DNA of 64,000 nt from Haliclystus octoradiatus. Its lineage: Eukaryota > Cnidaria > Staurozoa > Stauromedusae > Haliclystidae. Positions 4,243 through 63,066 of the stretch are shown here, piece by piece. Position 1 is the stretch's first letter. Each line of letters begins with the position of its first letter. A program made the translations under genes and the position numbers. The stretch is taken from assembly GCA_916610825.1 (NCBI GenBank), contig OU744447.1, positions 32,799,073 through 32,863,072 of the forward strand, written 5' to 3'. The notes beneath the pieces were generated by a model. That model made no database searches and was not told the origin of the DNA. It was given only the letters and a program-made list of their open reading frames with translations.

Positions 4243-4397
4243 TGCACTGTTGAAACTCTGCATTATAATTGAAAGTTATTATATTGAAATGTTGAGTTGT
4301 TAATTATATTATTGGTTACTTATTAATATTGTTCAAGTTAAATTGGTATAAGGAATCCCTTCACTGCCAGGAGAAAAAGAAAAGAATTGTTAACATC

Positions 4398-7300
4398 ATG
4401 GATGAGAAGTGGTCAATTGATAAGTTGAATTCAACAAATTGGATGACATGGAAGTTTCAAATGAAGCACTGTCTGCTCTCTAAGGGTGTTTGGGGCTTTG
4501 TAAATGGCACAGAAACAGTAGCAGAACCTGGTTCAGCAGAAGATCAGCTAAAATTCAAACAGAAATGTCAAAAGGCATTTGCTCTCATTGTTATGTCAAT
4601 AACAACCAGTCAATTGTATTTGATAACATCTTTTGAAGAACCAAAACCTGCATGGGATGCTCTTTGCAATCATTTTGAGAGAGAAAGCCTCGCTAACAAG
4701 TTGTATTTAAAGAAAAAATATTTCAGAGCTGAAATGGAAGATTCATCTTCTATGGAAGATCATTTGAAGATGATGAAAGGAATAGTGGACAAACTTAGAG
4801 CCATTGGGTCACCTATTTCTGAGGAAGATCAAGTTGTAACATTATTGGGAAGTCTTCCACAAAATTATTCTACTATTGTGACTGCTCTAGAAGCACGTGT
4901 TGATGACATTAGTTTGGATTTTGTACAGCAAGCATTATTACATGAAGAAACCAAGCACAAAGAATTGATGATATCAAATGATAGTATTGCTAAGAATGAC
5001 TCAGTTTTATTAAGTAGAAGGGGAAATGGACTGAGTAATGTAAAATGTTATGGTTGTGACCAATATGGTCATTACAAGCAAAACTGTCCTCGCAAAAGTA
5101 GAAGGAAATCCAATTATAAGAAGCATCATGTAAACCTCAGCAATAATCAAAGTGAGTCTGATTCTGACTCTGATCATGGTAGACGATCTACTGTAAGTGC
5201 ATTTGTTGCAGGCCATCAATTGAATGTTGCAAAGGAAAGCAATTGGATAGTTGATTCAGGAGCATCAAGTCATATGACATGTCAGAAGAAGCTGTTGATG
5301 AATTTCAGAGAGTTGGATGTAAAGCAGTTCGTTACACTGGGTGACGGTGGAAGTGTGGAAGTCATGGGCATTGGAGATATTGGTTGTGAGATCATGATCT
5401 CAAAAGGCAAATTCAAGTCAGCTGTGTTTCATGATGTATTACTGGTACCTCAATTAATAAGTAATCTGTTCTCTGTGAAAGCTGCTACTGAACGTGGTAA
5501 CTTTTTACAATTTGGTCACAGTAAATGCTGGATTAAAGATGAGGATGGAATTTTATGTGGTGTTGGTACCAGAAATGGAAAGTTGTACCAATTGATATGT
5601 AGGAGTACCTCAAATAATGCAGCCGCTACTGCCACTACAAAGGTTGATGCAAATTTATGGCATCAACGTCTTGGACACCTGAATGAGCAACAGCTAAAAC
5701 TCATGGTCAGAGAAGATTTGGTAGAGGGTATGGATCTAAAGGAAGATTCTAGAACATCATTCTGTGAAAGTTGCGTTGAAGGAAAAATGCAACGGAAGCC
5801 ATATAAAGCAAAGCATGAAATAAAGTCAACTAAGAAACTTGAGCTTGTCCACACCGACGTATGTGGACCCATGGAAACACAATCAATTGGTGGACACAAA
5901 TATTTCGTAACATTCATTGATGACTTCAGTCGCTGTTGTGCTGTCTACTTTATTCGACATCGATCACAGGTATTACAAAAATTTAAAGAATTCAAGACTC
6001 TAGTGACAAAAGAATCTGGTGAAGAAATTGACAAAATGAGATTTGACAATGGTGGGGAATATGTTTCACAAGATTTCAAAGATTTTCTCAAATCAGAAGG
6101 GATCATTGCCGAGCCAACTGTACCTTACACTCCTCAGCAAAATGGTGTTGCAGAGAGAATGAACAGAACGCTGGTGGAATCTGCGAGAACTATGATTGCA
6201 CATGCGGATCTGCCAAATATGTTCTGGGCAGAGGCCATTGCAACAGCTGCATATTTAAGAAATCGCACATGCTCATCTTCATTCGAATGTAACATCACAC
6301 CGTTTGAGAAATGGCATGGTTACAAGCCTGATATTTGTCATTTAAAAGTGTTTGGTTGTACTGCCTATGCACACATTCCAGATGCTCTCCGTAAGAAGCT
6401 TGACAAAAAGGCTAACAAAATGCGATTTGTTGGCTATTGTAACAGCAGCAAAATTTATCGTTTATTTGATGAATCCAAACGAAAAGTTGTGCTGAAGAAA
6501 GATGTAGTTTTCAATGAAAAGGAATTCACTGTCACCAGAAAGAAGCAAGAAGTGAATGAAAATACCGAAATCACATCTGGTAGTTCTGAAGATATTCAAG
6601 AAGCAAATGATGTTAGCAACTCATCTCCAAGCATTAATGGTGATGGTGGCACCAAAGTTAGTAGACCGATGAGAGAATCAAGACAACCAGTTCGTTTTGG
6701 CTATGAAGAATATGCTGATCTAACGGAGCTCACACACCAAGCATCTCATGTGGCCTTGAATGTATCAGATGTTATAGAGCCTCAGAGTATTAGAGAAGCA
6801 ATGGAAAGTGAAGAAGCAATAGAATGGAATACTGCATGTGAATCAGAATACAAATCCCTCATGGACATGGAAACATGGGATCTTGTCAAGCTACCACCTG
6901 GGAAGAAACCTATAGGCTGTAAATGGGTGTTTAAAGTAAAACACAAAAGTAATGGTGACGTTGAACGTTTCAAGGCCAGATTAGTCGCAAAGGGTTATGC
7001 ACAACGTCATGGAATAGATTTTGGAGAGACATATGCACCTGTTCTTCGTCTAGACACAATGAGAACATTGCTGGCTTTTGCAACAAAGAAGGGATTGCTC
7101 GTGCATCAGATGGATGTCGTCACAGCATTCTTGAATGGCAAACTAGAAGATGAAGTGTACATGTGTCAGCCTGAGGGGTTCATTGCTGATGGGAAGAAGG
7201 ATCTAGTTTGTAAACTAAACAAATCAATTTATGGTCTTAAGCAATCCCCTAGATGTTGGAACAAGACATTTCATGACTTTATGGAGCAGCATGGATATAT

Positions 7301-8339
7301 CAAATCTACTGCAGACCCATGTCTCTACTACAAATCAGATGGTAATCTATCAATTGTTGCTGTTTATGTTGACGATCTGATTATTATTACGGATAATGCG
7401 GAAGAGATGACAGAAGCAAAGAATGCACTAGCTGCAAGGTTCAAAATGAAAGATATTGGTGAAATACATTACTGCCTTGGCTTGACGATCGAAAGGGATG
7501 AAAAATGGGAAACTTTAAAACTTCATCAAAAACAGCATATCTTGAAACTGATCAATACATCTGGTTTAACTAATGCGTACATTGTGTCAACTCCGGCTGA
7601 TATCAATGTTAAACTTGTAAAAGATGATGGTGTCAGCAAGGAAGTAGATGCAACAATTTATCAATCGCTTGTTGGGAGTTTGCTGTATATATCAATTGCT
7701 TCGCGTCCAGATATCGCACAAGCAGTGGGAGTAGTTGCTAGATTCTCATCAAGACCTACTGAATCTCATTTAACCGCAGTAAAGCGTATTTTGAGATATC
7801 TCAAAGGAACGGTAGACTTGGCACTGACATTCAATTCCTCAAAAGATGAAAACCTAGTTGGTTATTCTGATGCTGACTGGGCAGGTGATCTTGATAACAG
7901 AAATTCGACTACTGGCACTCTCTTTTTGATGTCAGGTGCAGCTATCTCTTGGAGAAGCAGAAGACAACCATGTGTCTGTCTATCAACTACTGAAGCGGAG
8001 TATGTTGCTCTAAGTTTAGCTTCTCAAGATGCAACTTGGTTCAGATATCTAATAAAAGATTTGATGACAACAGATGAAGAGCCAACAACAATAATGGAAG
8101 ATAATCAAGGAGCAATGGCATTGGCGTCCAATCCTGTTTGGCACGGTAGAACAAAACACATTGACATCCGATTCCATTATGTCCGAGAAGCAATTGAAAG
8201 AGGTCTTATCAAACTGCAGTACTGCCCAACAGAAGAGATGACTGCAGACATTATGACAAAACCTCTACCCAAGGATAGATTTGTAAAACTGCGAAAGCAA
8301 ATGGGTTTGAAATTTACAATTGCTATAAAACAAAGTTAA
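4398..8339 (+). CDS. Copia gag-pol polyprotein
   Basis: Single uninterrupted polyprotein, 1313 residues from the ATG at 4398 (the open frame starts at 4329, but MDEKWSIDKLNSTNW is the usual start of a Copia Gag). Order of domains: Gag; CCHC zinc knuckle CYGCDQYGHYKQNC near 5046; aspartic protease with DSGA at 5253; integrase with its HHCC finger (LWHQRLGHL) near 5660 and catalytic D at 5856, then the second D and E around FDNGGE and NGVAERMNRT; reverse transcriptase with YVDD at 7365-7376; RNase H with DADWAG and STTEAEY. Integrase before reverse transcriptase is diagnostic of Copia. It makes all proteins for reverse transcription and integration of the element. No frameshift or missing catalytic residue was noticed. 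Confidence 0.95.
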   Translation: MDEKWSIDKLNSTNWMTWKFQMKHCLLSKGVWGFVNGTETVAEPGSAEDQLKFKQKCQKAFALIVMSITTSQLYLITSFEEPKPAWDALCNHFERESLANKLYLKKKYFRAEMEDSSSMEDHLKMMKGIVDKLRAIGSPISEEDQVVTLLGSLPQNYSTIVTALEARVDDISLDFVQQALLHEETKHKELMISNDSIAKNDSVLLSRRGNGLSNVKCYGCDQYGHYKQNCPRKSRRKSNYKKHHVNLSNNQSESDSDSDHGRRSTVSAFVAGHQLNVAKESNWIVDSGASSHMTCQKKLLMNFRELDVKQFVTLGDGGSVEVMGIGDIGCEIMISKGKFKSAVFHDVLLVPQLISNLFSVKAATERGNFLQFGHSKCWIKDEDGILCGVGTRNGKLYQLICRSTSNNAAATATTKVDANLWHQRLGHLNEQQLKLMVREDLVEGMDLKEDSRTSFCESCVEGKMQRKPYKAKHEIKSTKKLELVHTDVCGPMETQSIGGHKYFVTFIDDFSRCCAVYFIRHRSQVLQKFKEFKTLVTKESGEEIDKMRFDNGGEYVSQDFKDFLKSEGIIAEPTVPYTPQQNGVAERMNRTLVESARTMIAHADLPNMFWAEAIATAAYLRNRTCSSSFECNITPFEKWHGYKPDICHLKVFGCTAYAHIPDALRKKLDKKANKMRFVGYCNSSKIYRLFDESKRKVVLKKDVVFNEKEFTVTRKKQEVNENTEITSGSSEDIQEANDVSNSSPSINGDGGTKVSRPMRESRQPVRFGYEEYADLTELTHQASHVALNVSDVIEPQSIREAMESEEAIEWNTACESEYKSLMDMETWDLVKLPPGKKPIGCKWVFKVKHKSNGDVERFKARLVAKGYAQRHGIDFGETYAPVLRLDTMRTLLAFATKKGLLVHQMDVVTAFLNGKLEDEVYMCQPEGFIADGKKDLVCKLNKSIYGLKQSPRCWNKTFHDFMEQHGYIKSTADPCLYYKSDGNLSIVAVYVDDLIIITDNAEEMTEAKNALAARFKMKDIGEIHYCLGLTIERDEKWETLKLHQKQHILKLINTSGLTNAYIVSTPADINVKLVKDDGVSKEVDATIYQSLVGSLLYISIASRPDIAQAVGVVARFSSRPTESHLTAVKRILRYLKGTVDLALTFNSSKDENLVGYSDADWAGDLDNRNSTTGTLFLMSGAAISWRSRRQPCVCLSTTEAEYVALSLASQDATWFRYLIKDLMTTDEEPTTIMEDNQGAMALASNPVWHGRTKHIDIRFHYVREAIERGLIKLQYCPTEEMTADIMTKPLPKDRFVKLRKQMGLKFTIAIKQS

Positions 8340-19400: not shown

Positions 19401-20176
19401 TGAAATCAGTTTTATTGTTTTTCTGCATTGTATAGGCTTAGATTGCATCTTTAGTAATTTGGTTTTGTAATTTGCGCAGCATATAATTTGGTGCTTATAT
19501 TGTATGATGCTCCAGTCGCAACGATGTTATTAGTAAACCTTGTGGAGCTAGACAAGCAGTTTTGCGTCAGTCACTTTGTAAAGCTTTATTCAATGAAGGT
19601 CAAAGTATATCAAAGAGATCAAGAATATGTTTTGTCAGCGCAATACTACGGTGAAAAAATGATTTTACTAATATCTTCCATTCGCAGCTCATCTCTTGGA
19701 TGCGGAAATTGTTTCCATTATCAAATGAGCATTAGTTTACAGATAAATATGAAAATACGGAGGTGTCTGGAGATTGTTCCAATCATCTAATAAAATTGTA
19801 ACATCAACTGAAGCAAACTGAGAAATGAAAAATTTCCGTTCCTCGGCATTATGTTGCATAAAATATGGACAATGATAGAAATCTCAATACGTAAGAAGCC
19901 CTCAGATTGCGGCTTATTACTGAACTACGAAAGCTACTCGCGTTGATGAAAAATATAAATGGGGTGTTTTACAAACTAGGTTAGATCGAGAACGACAGCT
20001 ATCGTCTAGCGAAATTATGTTTAGTTTTGAATGCATTTTAATTGAGAACATATTTTAAAGTAAAGTTTACGGAGCACTTTATTGATTAATTTATTTGTAA
20101 ATCTAATCGCTTCAGTACAGAGAGTGTATCTAGAACACAAGAGACCAATGTGTATAAGTATAGTATTACCATATTG
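19401..20176. other. No gene recognised
   Basis: An open frame of 100 codons on the plus strand at 19488-19790 has no recognisable domain and may be the antisense of further LINE debris. Confidence 0.4.
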
Positions 20177-20430
20177 ACCGAGCGGCACAGAACTAAAACG
20201 GCAGGTTTCTCCGTGCAACTTGAAAAACACATAAAAGTGTTCATAAAAATATGCGAAACAATTTTAAAAATATGCAACCTATTTCTTGTTTTTATTAAAT
20301 TCTATTGTAAACCCTACAAAAATTTGACGAGAACAAGAAACGGGAAAGTTTTCATGGTATTTCATGAACATTTTTTGTGAATTTCAAGTTGCCTGGAGAA
20401 ACCTGCCGTTTTACTTCTGTGGCGCTCGGT
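20177..20430. mobile_element. MITE, family 2 copy 1
   Basis: 254 bp with TIRs: ACCGAGCGGCACAGAACTAA..CGGCAGGTTTCTCC at the left and the complement (..GGAGAAACCTGCCG..CGCTCGGT) at the right, over roughly 65 bp including the CACATAAAAGTGTTCAT part. A second, longer copy is at 31457-31905. Confidence 0.75.
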
Positions 20431-21659
20431 TTAGTATAAGGACCAAGCATCCACGAATTCGTTGCGGAAACATTAGGAACCCTGAGTGTTGAAGTCGGTC
20501 AATGTTTCAGACAGATATTTAGGAGCAGAAACTTAATTGATGACCATAGAATCAGTGAGCCGTGACCAATTCTACCGTCTCGGCAATGCATTGAATATGA
20601 ATTTAAGTTGGGATTTAAATGTGACTCGTGTGATACGACGTATGCATGCCAGATTCACATGCCAGGATAAAGGAAGATGCATGTTTTTAGATAATGCATC
20701 TTCTCGTTTATTGCTGGATACGAGTGGAATAATGTTTGTCATGGCAACTTTTGTGTCAATCTATGTTTGGTCATCAGAAATTACCCCAATGATTTACATG
20801 TAAAGGCATTCTACAATTCAATGAGTGGAATTCCTCCAGGACTTCGATTATCTGATACTATCATTTATTTAAAATCTTCGAAGTATGATTTCTCAGCTAA
20901 AATAAATTCTTCGAATATTTGTGCTCATTCTTCGATTGCATACTTTTCATGACTGCGCTGGCAATTCAGAAACTGAGCATTGAAGGACATCTCCATTTTC
21001 AAAATGCAAATACAGTGATAATAATGAATAACATTCTATAATCCCTCACACTCAATGTTTAATCCTTAATTACTTTCATCCTTATAGTACGCAAACTGTA
21101 ACATCCTTAGCAATTTGCTAAATTGAAAAAGTTGTGTTTTCAATTCTGATAGTACATTGTAATTCATTTCTTTGAAAATCAATTAAAACCAATCAGATAA
21201 TTGCATTGATATTGTCATATCATCATTGTCATCAGCTAAAAAGTAATAACATCACGATTTTCCAAAATATCATTTTGTACATTTATATTTACTTGTATAT
21301 GTTAGTAATGATAATGACAATCTTGAAAGCAATACGAGAAAAAATAAAATCCTCAAAAGTAATTAAATATGCCGATGATAACATGACGAATTTATAAATG
21401 TTTCAAGTTTCGTGACAAAATTCGAGTGCAAACTATGTATATAGAGTTTCGCAATAATAATGTTAGTGGAAAGAGTTCCATTCGTCTTAATTGGAATGTT
21501 TCCTTTACTATCATTGCACCTGGTGCAATCGTCGCTTTTTTGCAATACTGATTAGTAATACTGAAAAGATTTGCAGGGATCTTCAAACGTGCTACTTATC
21601 TTCCTTAATTAAATAAAATGATAAAATGCTGTTTTTAGAGTCCAATTTAGCAGCTGAAA
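20431..21659. other. No gene recognised; 5' flank of gene A
   Basis: The open frames 20537-20803 and 20767-20952 show no family motifs. Confidence 0.4.
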
Positions 21660-30880: not shown

Positions 30881-31456
30881 GTAAGCCAATGATCTCAAAT
30901 TTTATTTACTTTATAATTCTTTTAATATAAATGTAGCATCAATGTTGCCACATACATCAGGTGTATGCACTCCAGGTAATCCTTTGTAAAATGATGATGC
31001 CTTCTAGTTCTTTAACTGCTGTTTAACTTCCTTTAAAATATCTGCAAGAAACAAATTCTGATTCAGCAATAAATTCAATACAAGGTATCTTTTATTCAAG
31101 AGGAAGCTATAATGCAATTACTATGAACTCATGACTTTTGACAAATATTTTCAACTCATGATGAAGTTGTTTTAGAAATACTGTTTTTGGAAATGTCACT
31201 GGATGTTGCCATTACTTCCCTAAATGTATCACCTCTGTAATTATCTATCGCGGAGAAAAAAACAAGAAATAATACACAATTTGAGTTAATGAGATGATAT
31301 TCATTGCTATTCTTGTTCCAAGGTTAGTTGTTCCACTGCATGCTATGTAGTGACAGACGACATCAAATGAAAGTTCTATTTCACAATTTGCATTTCTGTC
31401 CATCTATTGATTGTTTATTTTATTGATTGTTATTGTCTAAAGAAGATAGATAAGAT

Positions 31457-31905
31457 ACCAAGCACCGCAGAACTGAAACGGCAGGATTCTCGAGGCAACT
31501 TGAAAATCACATAACAGTGCTCATAAAAAAATATGCTAAACAATTCCCTTTCACTTGTTTTAATTAAATTCTATTGTAAACCCTTCAAAAATTCAATTTA
31601 TATTTATGATTCACGGTCAAAGCCTTCTTATGATTTTGATAAAATGCTGCGTGTGAGCTTCATGTGATTAGATTTATTTTGTTTTCCCATGGTTTTGCAA
31701 ATCCATACAACGATGACGAAAACACATATTGTATGAATTAGAAGGGCCTGACGGTAAAATGATTTACAAATTCATCTTGGTGAGGTCAACCATAAAATTT
31801 GACTAAGCTAGAAACGGGAATGCATTTATGGATTTTTTATAAACATGTTATGTGAATTTCAAGTTGCCCGGAAAAACCTGTTGTTTCAGATATGTGGCGC
31901 TCGGT
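31457..31905. mobile_element. MITE, family 2 copy 2
   Basis: 449 bp. Ends like copy 1 at 20177: left ACCAAGCACCGCAGAACTGA..CGGCAGGATTCTC, right ..GGAAAAACCTG..TGTGGCGCTCGGT. Longer inside than copy 1. Located in the intron between the microexon and the first TSP1 exon of gene A. Confidence 0.7.
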
Positions 31906-40400: not shown

Positions 40401-41487
40401 GAACTCTTGCCACAGATTTCCTCAACGCTTAAAGATAATCATAACCACAGTTCATTGGCTGACGGATTTGGCTTTCGAATGCATAATACTGACCCATTGG
40501 TATCCTAGATGGCTCAATCGTACCTGCTAATTCTCCTCATGGGTTTGAGGCTGTTGATTTAAGTCTAAACTGTATCCATCTTGCCCAGTTGTAAAAAGAA
40601 GGATGAAGTGCAGTGGGTCAGCTGATCGAGGGGTGTCGGCGATTTGAGCCACTTTCATATCAGATGAGTTACGTAGTAGAACAGAAAAACCTTCTATTTA
40701 CTGGTTGAGCAACATGGGTCAGGATAAAAATTTCTTAAAATGACAGATAACATTGGCTCGCATATTCCCAGATGGGACGTCTATCTGGATCTATTATCAA
40801 TTTTGCCGCTATATTTTCAATTTTCGACAAACCTTCAAATGCATGTTTATAGTCTTTTACATAGCTGTTTTCTCGAATGAGATATTGCTGAAGAGTTTTT
40901 ATTATGTTTCCGAGATGCGAATTTTCTTCCACAGTAACATTGTTAGGCAATAATGGATTATTAAATCGGATTTCATCCTCTTCGTTTGCATGGCTAGGAT
41001 CTACTACATACAATTGATCGAACACAGGAATGTCTCCTTGGTTTGGTTGCATAGCTCCTACACCCAATAAACATTTTTCCTCGTAGTTGGATTCCACCCA
41101 CTTCTGCTTGGGGTTGTAGGATGTTGGACTTGCAGGCAAGCAAGTGCCAATCCATTTTTTAGCTGCCAACAGTGTGTTCGGAAAGTTTTAGATACCTCTG
41201 ATGTACCTTCCCATAGATCTTTGATTACGCACAAGGGATATGAATGAGCTCTGGAAGAACTTTTCTCGATCTACAGCACATTCCAAGGCCTCATCCTTCC
41301 ACTTCAATGCACTGAAATAATGGCATAATGTGAGATGCGGTAATAATTCTTCTCTATTGATACATCTGATGTTGTTTCTATCCACTAATTGGCTACTTGA
41401 AAGTAAATATAATATTATCCCTGTGGTCTTGTCATATTATCATCATCATGCCCAATTTGTGATTTAATTAGCTAAAACTTTTATTAT

Positions 41488-41710
41488 ATTGATAAGGCTG
41501 GTCTGACACTTGTTTCGTTCCTGCCAAGGAACTCATCAGAGATCTTTCTGATGTCGTAGCTCGTCAGATATCGCGCCTGAAGTCCCGCTAACGAATTGTA
41601 GAGATGGTGACAACCTCGGTGCATATCGCATGCGCAGTTCCTGTTGAATAACAACGTGATTGAATAATCAATTGATAAGGCTGGTCTGACACGTGTTTCG
41701 TTCCTGCCAT
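41488..41710 (-). repeat. 183-bp-period direct repeat carrying hammerhead halves
   Basis: The 39-bp block at 41488-41526 recurs at 41671-41709 with one or two changes (ATTGATAAGGCTGGTCTGAC, then AC.TGTTTCGTTCCTGCCA). The period is 183 bp. On the minus strand the right block holds only the 3' half of the hammerhead, while the left one is complete. Confidence 0.8.
41500..41544 (-). ncRNA. Type I hammerhead ribozyme
   Basis: On the minus strand: CUGAUGA (41539-41533), helix II GUUCC/GGAAC of 5 perfect pairs with loop UUGGCA, GAAAC (41516-41512), a minimal helix III (A-U, C-G) with loop AAGU, and cleavage triplet GUC (41507-41505). Helix I is formed by ..GAUCU before the core and AGACC after the cleavage site: three pairs, one mismatch, then a further pair. 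Every invariant core base is present. Very short helix III with helix I open is known from Penelope-like elements and animal retrozymes. Expected self-cleavage is just after 41505 (minus strand). Activity is inferred, not shown. Confidence 0.75.
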
Positions 41711-42260
41711 TTCGTTCCTCCGTTTATTATATTCTACAATCAAATGGTGTTCAAACATTCAGTGTATACGTGGAGCTGTGGAGGGTGTGCGAATCGAACA
41801 AGATTCCTATCTAATCAAATCCAATCCGATTCAGTCATATAGAATCATAACTTATCGGATCCAATCTGGTCTAAAGGGATCTAATACGATATGACCGTAA
41901 TGAGAACGTTTCGTAGAGTGTTTTGAGCGTATTTTGATTGACTTTCAGCTTTCGGTCAGATCACAAAGTATAATTCTACAACTCATGGGTCCGAACTTTC
42001 TGTGACAAAATTAATGATTATTTCAGATAGTTGAAAGTAGCAATGACACTTGAGGAAACTTGTTATATTTAAGCTGTTAAACTGTTTCTAAATGTAATTT
42101 ATAATACTCATAAAGCATATTTAATATAATTAAATATAATACTCTTTGTGACAATGTTTAGTATTTTCAGCAGTAGGAATCATCACATTTCATAGTATAT
42201 AGCATAAGCATATAACAATGATAAAAATTACACAAATATTGTAGACAGTAAATTAATATT
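41711..42260. other. Unassigned insertion within the Helitron
   Basis: No coding content; AT-rich with several AATCCAATC-like motifs around 41810-41870. Confidence 0.4.
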
Positions 42261-59807: not shown

Positions 59808-60444
<637 letters not shown>

Positions 60445-60633
60445 GATATATATTTACGCTCTTATTCTGAGCAAATTTGTTAGTGTTATGTACATTGTGC
60501 ATTTTTTTTTGCTGTTTCCAATTAATAATTTGATATGAGTAAGTTGCCAGCAGTTTGTTATTTAAAGGAAGAATATGTATGTAATATTTATTTATTTATC
60601 TTATTTAACTTTTTAACTATTATAAATTAATTT

Positions 60634-62280
60634 TTAACTCTCTATATTGCTTACAAATTGAACGTAAGATTTAATAGCTTCACAATTTACGATATGGTAT
60701 AGATATGATGCAGATGAGCCACATTTTTCACATATGCATTCATCAGTTGGCTTGTGAAATCCATTTGTCAGGCAAATTAGATGATGAAACCCATGCATTG
60801 ACAGCCTGGTTATAAAATGCCTGTTTACTTTGTTTGACATCATCCATCCATTTGACTCTAGGACTGGAGCATATTGGTGATCACTTTCTAATCTGGATTT
60901 TAGCTTAGATTGTGTAATATTTAATACGTTTTCAATTAGGTTGGAGTTTAAATTATATCGTAAATTCAAATCAGTAGTATATGGTGATACATTTGAAAAT
61001 AAATAAACCAATGTGTTTGACGAATAGGCAGACACACCTAAAACACGTTTGAAGTACTGAGCTTTTAATTTGTTGAGTTCAAACAAGTTTGATAACGAGA
61101 GATAAGGGCCAATAACCTCAAAACCATATGTAATTATCGGAGATAAATTCATTTCAAATATTTCTATAGCTGATTTGATTGAAAGTCGCCTCAAATGTTT
61201 AATTAAGCCAATAGCTATAGCAAACTTTTGTTTTTTCTTTGAAATATGCTATGTAAATGACAAAGAGGTCTGGAGTGTAACACCAAGATAAGTATATGAT
61301 TTCGAAAATGCTACAGCTTCACCGCGGTAAGTAAAATAATCATCTTTAGCCAAACGACCACCTTTACGAAATTTCATAACGTTGGTTTTCTTTAGATTTA
61401 CTTGGAGTACATTGGACTTGCACCATGTAGAAACTAAGTCGATTCCATGCTGGAGTATATTACGATCGGTCGAATAAATTGCCAGATCATCAGCAAAGAA
61501 TAAATATTTAAGGTTATGCACTGCTTTTAAATTATTTGCTAGATCGGCGATGTATAACAGAAATAAAGTTGGAGATAAACTGTCACCTTGTGCAACACCC
61601 TGGTTTTGTCGAATAGAATCAAAGATTCTGATACCATCGTGAATACGAATAAAGTTTCCTTGCAAGAGACCACCAATTAATTTTAAAGTTAAACCATCGA
61701 TACCAAATTGATCTTTCAACTTAGCAAATAATATTTCTCGATTGACGACGTCAAATGCTTTCTTGAAGTCAATGAAAGTGCAGTAGGTTGATTTATATGA
61801 GAAAGAGAATTGAGAATAAATATCTTCAATTAAAATAGATAATGGCATCAAAGTGTTTTTGCCCTCTTGAAATCCATATTGTCCTGATGGAATGAGATTG
61901 AAAATATTTGTCTTTAATCGCAAATTTAGCAATGAGGTCAGGACCTTCAAGGGACAACAGAGAAGGGCAATACCACGGTAGTTATTCGGATCTTGCGCAG
62001 AACCATTTCCTTTATATAATAATTTAAATATACAATCTCTCCATCGAGAAGGTATACAGCCAGATTTCAAACATAGATTAAACAGTTGTGTCCAGAATGG
62101 AAGTAAAATATCCAGGGAATAATACAAATGTTCATTAGTAATATTATCTAAGCCAGGGGATTTCTTCGTTGATGTTTTGAGAATTGTTTCTAAAACTTCT
62201 TCCTCAGTAAATAAGTGGTTGTACCAAGGTAAATTGTTTGAGTCTAAAATCAAATTATTTACTATTTCAATTACTATCAA
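60634..62280 (-). pseudogene. LINE ORF2 copy 1: reverse transcriptase and C-terminal zinc knuckle
   Basis: Minus-strand LINE fragment, 5'-truncated at about 62280-62303. The RT has KKSPGLDNITNEHLY, NNYRGIALLCCPLK, GQYGFQEGKNTL, IDFKKAFDVVN, GVAQGDSLSPTLFLLYIADL and the catalytic FFADDLAIY. The C-terminal part has YTYLGVTL and a Cys-His cluster CICEKC..H..NC near 60700. A single nonsense codon (TAG at 61251-61249, where copy 2 has GAG) splits the frame; otherwise it is open. It is followed by a 3' UTR of about 190 bp and then the GATA array. The clade is not decided; the zinc cluster position resembles many non-LTR elements. Confidence 0.85.
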
Positions 62281-62302: not shown

Positions 62303-62873
<571 letters not shown>

Positions 62874-63066
62874 ATGATATATATTTACGCTCTTATTCTG
62901 AGCAAATTTGTTAGTGTTATGTACATTGTGCATTTTTTTTTTTTGCTGTTTCCAATTAATAATTTGATATGAGTAAGTTGCCAGCAGTTTGTTATTTAAA
63001 GGAAGAATATGTATGTAATATTTATTTATTTATCTTATTTAACTTTTCAACTATTATAAATTATTT

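Follow-up and report, generated by a model that had tools for sequence, protein, structure and literature searches.

The stretch of Haliclystus octoradiatus DNA analysed here (64,000 nucleotides, hereafter the window) carries at 41539–41505 of its minus strand a complete type I hammerhead ribozyme (HHR) core, which reads CTGATGA GTTCC TTGGCA GGAAC GAA AC AAGT GT C and includes the CTGATGA, GAAAC and GTC elements, in agreement with an earlier sequence-only reading that had placed every invariant base on this strand. A general hammerhead pattern matched the 64-kb window at this single site and none of 100 dinucleotide shuffles. The five perfect pairs of helix II and the two pairs of helix III with an AAGU loop, both described in that reading, could be assigned from the letters, and its 183-bp repeat was found as well: a 39-nt segment at 41488–41526 recurs at 41671–41709 with 97% identity. 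Since TTTATTATATT flanks the element at 41480–41490 and 41723–41733, we regard it as one insertion of 232 bp, or 1.2 units of 183 nt, bounded by a target-site duplication (TSD) that sets its limits at 41491–41722, wider on the 5′ side than the 41488..41710 first proposed. The parts of the locus are as follows.

41491..41722, minus strand: retrozyme insertion, 232 bp, 1.2 units; 5′ end at 41722, 3′ end at 41491; between the TSD copies
41480..41490: TSD copy at the element 3′ end, TTTATTATATT on the plus strand; the final 3 bases could equally belong to the element
41723..41733: TSD copy at the element 5′ end, TTTATTATATT, 11 bp
41505..41539, minus strand: type I hammerhead core, found by pattern, Rfam score below gathering; pairs assigned by reading
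41539–41533, minus strand: CUGAUGA box, with helix II at 41532–41528/41521–41517 and GAA at 41516–41514, read from the letters
A41513–U41506 and C41512–G41507, minus strand: helix III pairs, read from the letters
Between 41505 and 41504, minus strand: predicted cleavage site, expected from the core
41540..41544, minus strand: helix I, 5′ strand; A41543 lies opposite C41501, where the family consensus has G
41500..41504, minus strand: helix I, 3′ strand, AGACC
41491..41499, minus strand: 3′ terminal stretch AGCCTTATC; the adjoining AAT is common to element and target
41488..41526, minus strand: repeated 39-nt segment, copy closer to the 3′ end
41671..41709, minus strand: repeated 39-nt segment, copy closer to the 5′ end, with the HHR 3′ half only
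41710..41722, minus strand: CGGAGGAACGAAA, 13 nt added at the 5′ end and nearly repeating the AGGAACGAAA beside them
41534..41553, minus strand: competing hairpin CAUCAGA/UCUGAUG, 41553–41547 with 41540–41534, which would mask CUGAUGA

The covariance-model match that had been anticipated was found below threshold: Rfam Hammerhead_1 (RF00163) scored the window HHR at 18.0 bits (E = 0.13) against a gathering score of 34, at which a scan of the window returned no Hammerhead_1 match. Among 20 other scanned loci only two gave the model at E up to 1 (L049, 28.1 bits; L060, 23.8 bits), and none reached the gathering score, the best being 28.1 bits. Forcing the HHR helices cost about 10 kcal/mol relative to the unconstrained fold, under rules that ignore tertiary contacts. 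Reverse transcription of this copy probably started at the end of the 41491..41499 stretch, and the 13 extra nucleotides at its 5′ end possibly reflect a slip or a template switch as cDNA synthesis ended.

In the insert neither a reverse transcriptase (RT) nor a GIY-YIG frame was seen, and an Rfam scan of the window gave no tRNA. The surrounding DNA is low-copy: with the window itself counted, its flanks have two and three matches. Placement of the element inside a dead Helitron was not borne out by Pfam, which gave no Helitron match on five neighbouring pieces; the frames beside the element are ones that we take to be Helitron-like. Its proposed arrival after the surrounding DNA fits a paralog of the site on C5 (L161) that lacks the element, but this paralog also lacks about 125 bp more, so that the edges of the insertion are not displayed, and we rejected it as an exact empty site of the window copy.

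Other features met in the window were an open copia-type polyprotein frame at 4296–8339 on the plus strand (1347 codons; gag, integrase and RVT_2 matches), perhaps a recent LTR element, and long ATAG arrays at 59808–60452 and 62303–62883 that flank a minus-strand RT frame of LINE type (61249–62280). A weak mir-31-like hairpin was seen at L002, 2659–2745, plus strand (32.8 bits versus a gathering score of 51).

Copies of the unit across the genome

The many copies foreseen for a retrozyme-like element bearing a type I HHR were found when the genome (262 Mb, 33 contigs) was searched: 242 sites lie within three mismatches of the 28-nt HHR core (110 forward, 132 reverse), compared with no genomic site for the reversed core pattern as control, and some are in tandem at 183 or 186 bp. 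The 100 listed core sites were spread over 9 large contigs, and a DNA search with a piece of the window gave at least 75 matches, from the best 40 of 520 first-look candidates. We read 118 loci, five of which repeat one place, leaving 113 distinct ones. These gave 119 or 120 element blocks depending on the settings, 94 of them with a clear 3′ anchor; unanchored blocks were excluded from the TSD null and the lap counts and included in the tally of block beginnings. Two duplicated places (L004/L016 and L030/L091) are counted twice among the 94, and the set of 60 copies used below is without repeats. Selection relied on the HHR core or the sequence 3′ of it, so copies stopping short of the core escape.

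The computed consensus unit is 183 nt long (T type); in a second, 186-nt form (G type), GCTTTATC replaces TCATC. Its helix I is perfect (GGUCU/AGACC) and its helix III reads AC[ACGU]GU; amphibian hammerheads that act as pairs carry a palindromic tetraloop like this one (PMC7229834). L021 and L041 are identical to the consensus. The window copy shows six differences from the consensus (2.8%), among them the A·C mismatch in helix I, and has the loop AAGU versus ACGU, indicating that it is slightly decayed. Median divergence over the 94 copies was 2.6%, which makes the family look young. The helix II stretch was identical in 82 of the 121 HHRs matched in the loci read, and the flanks of the copies differ beyond the unit. 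Neither the unit nor its core was found in the plasmid, viral and prokaryote collections, and the unit sequence was absent from the paper texts searched. At one locus (L048, G000:C7:7650300-7652800) a 2.5-kb array has mixed spacings of 144 nt and about 177 nt, and apparently expanded after insertion.

The statement that no protein frame accompanies the ribozyme held in substance, although an open frame does cross the unit: the T-type consensus, with a length divisible by 3, is stop-free in one frame and could thus be read endlessly. We rejected this frame, which looks like chance. About 14% of shuffles of the unit also give a stop-free frame, the commonest change of the unit (T to A at u23, 12/45) creates a stop in it, the 23 changes present in at least four copies each comprise 7 synonymous, 14 nonsynonymous and 2 stops, and Pfam gave no match for the frame through the unit.

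Target-site duplications, the start of copying and the laps

Exact TSDs (score 7 or more) were found in 62 of the 94 anchored copies, compared with 4.0% of 1,856 flank-swapped pairs. Their lengths were 7–15 bp with a mode at 12 bp (16/62); when one mismatch was permitted, 77 of 120 blocks had a TSD, a count to which the exact-match null does not apply. The TSDs are AT-rich (GC 18.6% versus 33% in the surroundings), the target sequences show no clear TT/AAAA-like motif, and the listed element ends have neither a poly(A) nor a simple-repeat tail. L018 has a relative in L065 that spans the junction but lacks the insert, and such relatives of L031 and L042 lie in the window, at 20.2 and 31.5 kb. 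As a side observation, L031, L042 and probably L109 are separate insertions into one site of a short repeat, with relatives at window 20173–20433 and 31449–31673. L004 and L016 have flanks and target in common, and their lengths differ by one unit.

The copies share a common 3′ end and vary at their 5′ ends. In 57 of 60 distinct TSD-bearing copies the 3′ end lies 12–23 nt beyond the HHR cut, within UCAUCAAUUGAU or its G-type form; the three exceptions are L017 and L019, both judged to be miscalled, and L041 at 30 nt. Target and RNA overlap by at least 2 nt at the junction in 26/60 distinct copies (24/58 without L017 and L019), compared with 7.7% expected per junction, where the TSD finder keeps the longest match and thereby favours overlap with the RNA. 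The frequency of this overlap suggests that the nicked DNA end often pairs briefly with the UCAUCAAUUGAU stretch. Since copies extend back across the cut site, the template RNA appears to have been uncut at the adjoining HHR, an appearance that is in part an effect of how the copies were selected.

Copies longer than one lap accounted for 24/94 anchored copies, only 4/94 exceeded 366 nt, and the longest array among them was the 2.5 kb of L048. The tandem copies that had been expected thus exist, but most anchored copies are solo, and the collapsed tandem array proposed for the locus has to be replaced by a single 1.2-unit insertion with an 11-bp TSD, in a family in which 70/94 copies are no longer than one unit. 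Against a background stop rate of 0.0046 per nucleotide, 5′ ends pile up at one lap (length 168–188: 16 versus 3.2 expected) and at length 107–121 (24 versus 4.6 expected), and stopping is raised again at the same unit positions of the next lap, at 230–244 (6 of 17 at risk) and 290–314 (5 of 10); the clusters were picked after inspection of the data, and the background rate excludes them. The priming stretch itself falls within the one-lap cluster, which is what an enzyme running into its own primer on a circle would produce. Separately, 25/120 blocks were seen to begin at consensus u 72–83 (GUCACCAUCUC), possibly a strong stop or a transcription start. Taken together, the TSDs, the shared 3′ end and the one-lap pile-up point to an internal, target-primed start on an RNA intact at the ribozyme site, circular or multimeric.

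A linear multimer transcribed from tandem copies, uncut or partly cut, is a serious contender for the template in place of a circle, though we would not put it first, and it is otherwise compatible with our main reading. HHR mutants left insertion by a Penelope-like element (PLE) of anole unaffected in vitro (PMC11167929); since that assay, as reported there, needed no HHR cleavage, uncut multimers may have served here as well. The 5′ ends of three copies (L055, L062 and L086) are at most 1 nt away from where the HHR cuts, the position that run-off on a cut RNA would produce, so that circle and cut multimer may both serve. On the other hand, these are only 3 of the 19 blocks beginning at u 0–23, the remainder being scattered over the priming stretch, and with only 4/94 copies above 366 nt, long templates would need to come from few source loci. 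The T/G length class at the inner junction agreed with that of the 3′ end in 22/22 readable copies (14 T, 8 G); point variants at the inner junction occur in L011 and L050, and the TTATC of the window copy is present at both places. Private variants shared between laps were considered as proof of a single circle and not used (17 sites shared, most of them not rare, versus 110 in a single lap).

Penelope-like elements and the candidate mobiliser

GIY-YIG matches mark 16 places in the genome. One of them, L119, has an open frame of 792 amino acids with RVT_1 and GIY-YIG domains and two HHR motifs; it lies in a partial head-to-tail tandem with a period of 2608, and a minimal hammerhead, CTGAAGATGCAATTAAGCTATTGCGAAACGTT, precedes the end of each tandem copy. 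The 3′ part of L119 gave at least 46 matches from the best 40 of 377 candidates, and 42 of these were 96–100% identical, suggesting that this family (PLE1) is also young. Because 41 of the 46 matches share one end base, which is where the query L119 itself diverges, the family ends were read separately: 20 stretches comprised 11 short ends, 8 with a tail and 1 shorter, and the two main forms appear, by our count, to end about 49 nt or more beyond the HHR cut. PLE1 matches included 12 opposite-strand pairs within 5 kb with outward-facing 3′ ends, and in the end pairs read by us the tail was usually on one side and absent on the other. Duplications at 11 end pairs were mostly 12 bp (6/11), with 13, 8 and 15 bp in three others and no clear length in two; under a stricter script, three of these pairs showed none.

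Compared over their 3′ parts, the 13 further GIY-YIG places form at least four PLE groups, and none of them matched the strict HHR pattern. By eye, hammerhead-like motifs could be seen some 30–60 nt before the 3′ ends in two groups, one of L140, L144 and L145 (L146 is broken) and one of L141, L143, L148 and L149. These motifs have U and A at core positions 3 and 8 in place of C and G (CTTGAGAATGG.., CTTGAAAATGG.. before ..CGAAACG), which may be a compensatory exchange of a core pair. In the group of L142, L147, L150 and L151 neither pattern nor eye found a hammerhead near the 3′ end.

Retrozyme and PLE1 have only short matches in common (9–14 nt). A terminal likeness, CTTTATC(AA)TTGA, was rejected: its p of about 0.03 against random 30-mers is not significant given three variants and five ends.

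We explain the feature as a single copy of a retrozyme that is non-coding and of the non-LTR kind, and that probably moves by the following cycle, with an enzyme most likely derived from a PLE. A genomic copy or array would be transcribed, and the HHR would cut the RNA into units, followed by closure into circles as published for other animals. An RT with an endonuclease would nick AT-rich DNA, and, to judge from the footprint, the nicked end would prime inside the RNA 12–23 nt past the HHR site, often with 2–5 nt of pairing. Copying would pass the intact HHR junction and could exceed one lap, tending to halt near one lap and at other places, as the copies indicate. The TSD that is observed would result from a presumed further cut, made in the opposite strand at a distance of about 12 bp. 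The enzyme would most likely be that of the PLEs in the same genome, which is our best inference as mobiliser and not a proof.

The internal start of the retrozyme beyond the HHR, its AT-rich target and its commonest TSD length would all fit mobilisation by a PLE, in a comparison of TSDs that covered the retrozyme and PLE1. Several observations count against the PLE route, among them the shortness of the matches with PLE1 and the microhomology at retrozyme junctions. The 12 opposite-strand pairs of PLE1 contrast with the 113 retrozyme loci, which showed one adjoining inverted piece (L106) and one opposite copy 271 bp off (L065). In addition, PLE1 ends take two main forms, whereas those of the retrozyme fall in one stretch nearer the HHR (12–23 versus about 49 nt or more).

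The same target-primed footprint could have been left on the retrozyme by a LINE of this genome, which we judge unlikely without dismissing it. A LINE would also fit the common 3′ end of the copies, their truncated 5′ sides and TSD lengths of 7–15 bp, retrozyme repeats of Nematostella with 15-bp TSDs have been likened to LINEs (PMC4918200), and LINE-type frames with RVT_1 and endonuclease-like matches are present in the window. Against this enzyme stand the listed ends, which bear neither poly(A) nor a simple-repeat tail, the targets without a clear TT/AAAA-like motif, the PLE-like start inside the RNA just beyond the HHR, and the commonest TSD length, which equals that of PLE1.

Spread as a passive satellite, by unequal exchange and DNA transposition with an irrelevant ribozyme, is very improbable: L048 does look expanded, and L004 and L016 are alike in flanks and target and one unit apart, but the 100 listed core sites are scattered over 9 large contigs and the copies have their own TSDs and a common 3′ end, and the TSD control makes such spread unlikely for most copies. 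A chance hammerhead-like sequence or an assembly artefact, for which the Rfam score below gathering might speak, is refuted by the 242 genomic sites against none in the control, the single pattern match in the window with none in shuffles, and the identity of helix II in 82/121 HHRs.

Returning to the PLE enzyme, we put forward only tentatively that retrozymes and PLEs share one route, in which the enzyme would recognise RNA around a type I HHR, start by target priming a few tens of nucleotides past it in circular RNA, and lap the circle. The one-lap pile-up would then be the enzyme meeting its own primer, and the same effect, on a larger circle, would account for PLE partial tandems and pseudo-LTRs. 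Such a shared route, if true, names the mobiliser of animal retrozymes and gives the hammerhead of PLEs a function.

Comparison with known systems

According to Frangieh and others (PMC11167929), reverse transcription by a PLE protein begins within the element's RNA, at two neighbouring sites bounding the genomic tail; by the positions given, these sites are downstream of the HHR cut, and AT-rich DNA is cut or preferred. The footprint of the retrozyme is arranged likewise. The PLE of anole, PAc (PMC11167929), and Penelope of Adineta vaga (PMC3846280) are like the window element in a minimal type I HHR, an insertion end past it, partial tandems, an AT-rich target and a short TSD. Unlike PLEs, the window element is without an RT or endonuclease frame, has a unit of 183 nt versus 2608 bp and a helix III longer than that of PLE1, and belongs to a family in which an inverted second copy is rare. 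Retrozyme junctions show microhomology, whereas the anole PLE is described as starting without homology to the target (PMC11167929).

LTR retrozymes of plants are likewise non-autonomous and HHR-bearing, with a circular RNA intermediate proposed, but they have a type III HHR, LTRs, PBS and PPT, a 4-bp TSD and a length of several hundred nucleotides (PMC4918200, PMC7761336), compared with a type I HHR, a 183-nt unit and an 11-bp TSD here. SMalpha and W-elements of Schistosoma (PMC8490949) are alike in their SINE- or satellite-like units, minimal type I HHR and one putative TSD. The schistosome repeats are reported to contain a tRNA (PMC4918200) in a unit of 335 bp, in contrast to the 183-nt unit and the Rfam result for the window.

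The closest likeness is to the metazoan non-LTR retrozymes (Cervera and de la Pena 2020, PMC7229834), described as having a type I HHR with a short helix III, a non-coding tandem unit of 170–400 nt, GC below 50%, a TSD above 4 bp and PLEs in the same genome. The window element fits them in its type I HHR with all core bases, its TSD length, its unit size within 150–450 bp, its tandem occurrence and its lack of coding capacity, and its GC of 47% (49% in the family consensus) exceeds only the 45% of one figure legend there. The kind of element is therefore already published, and what is new here is the insertion footprint; among the titles and abstract openings searched, with subscription papers and preprints outside the scope, we found no paper on an internal start or a lap pile-up of a retrozyme. 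PLEs or LINEs have been proposed as movers of animal retrozymes (PMC7229834, PMC7761336), whose repeats, according to the review, have no conserved motif telling which retrotransposon moves them (PMC7761336). A family that looks young, with 242 core sites and about 100 copies read, shows the start site, target priming and a template intact at the ribozyme site. Where the text of PMC7229834 leaves the mobiliser open and makes no mention of truncation, the copies in this genome offer an internal start, a lap pile-up and a commonest TSD length that matches a PLE family of the same genome, so that the question of the mobiliser becomes directly testable.
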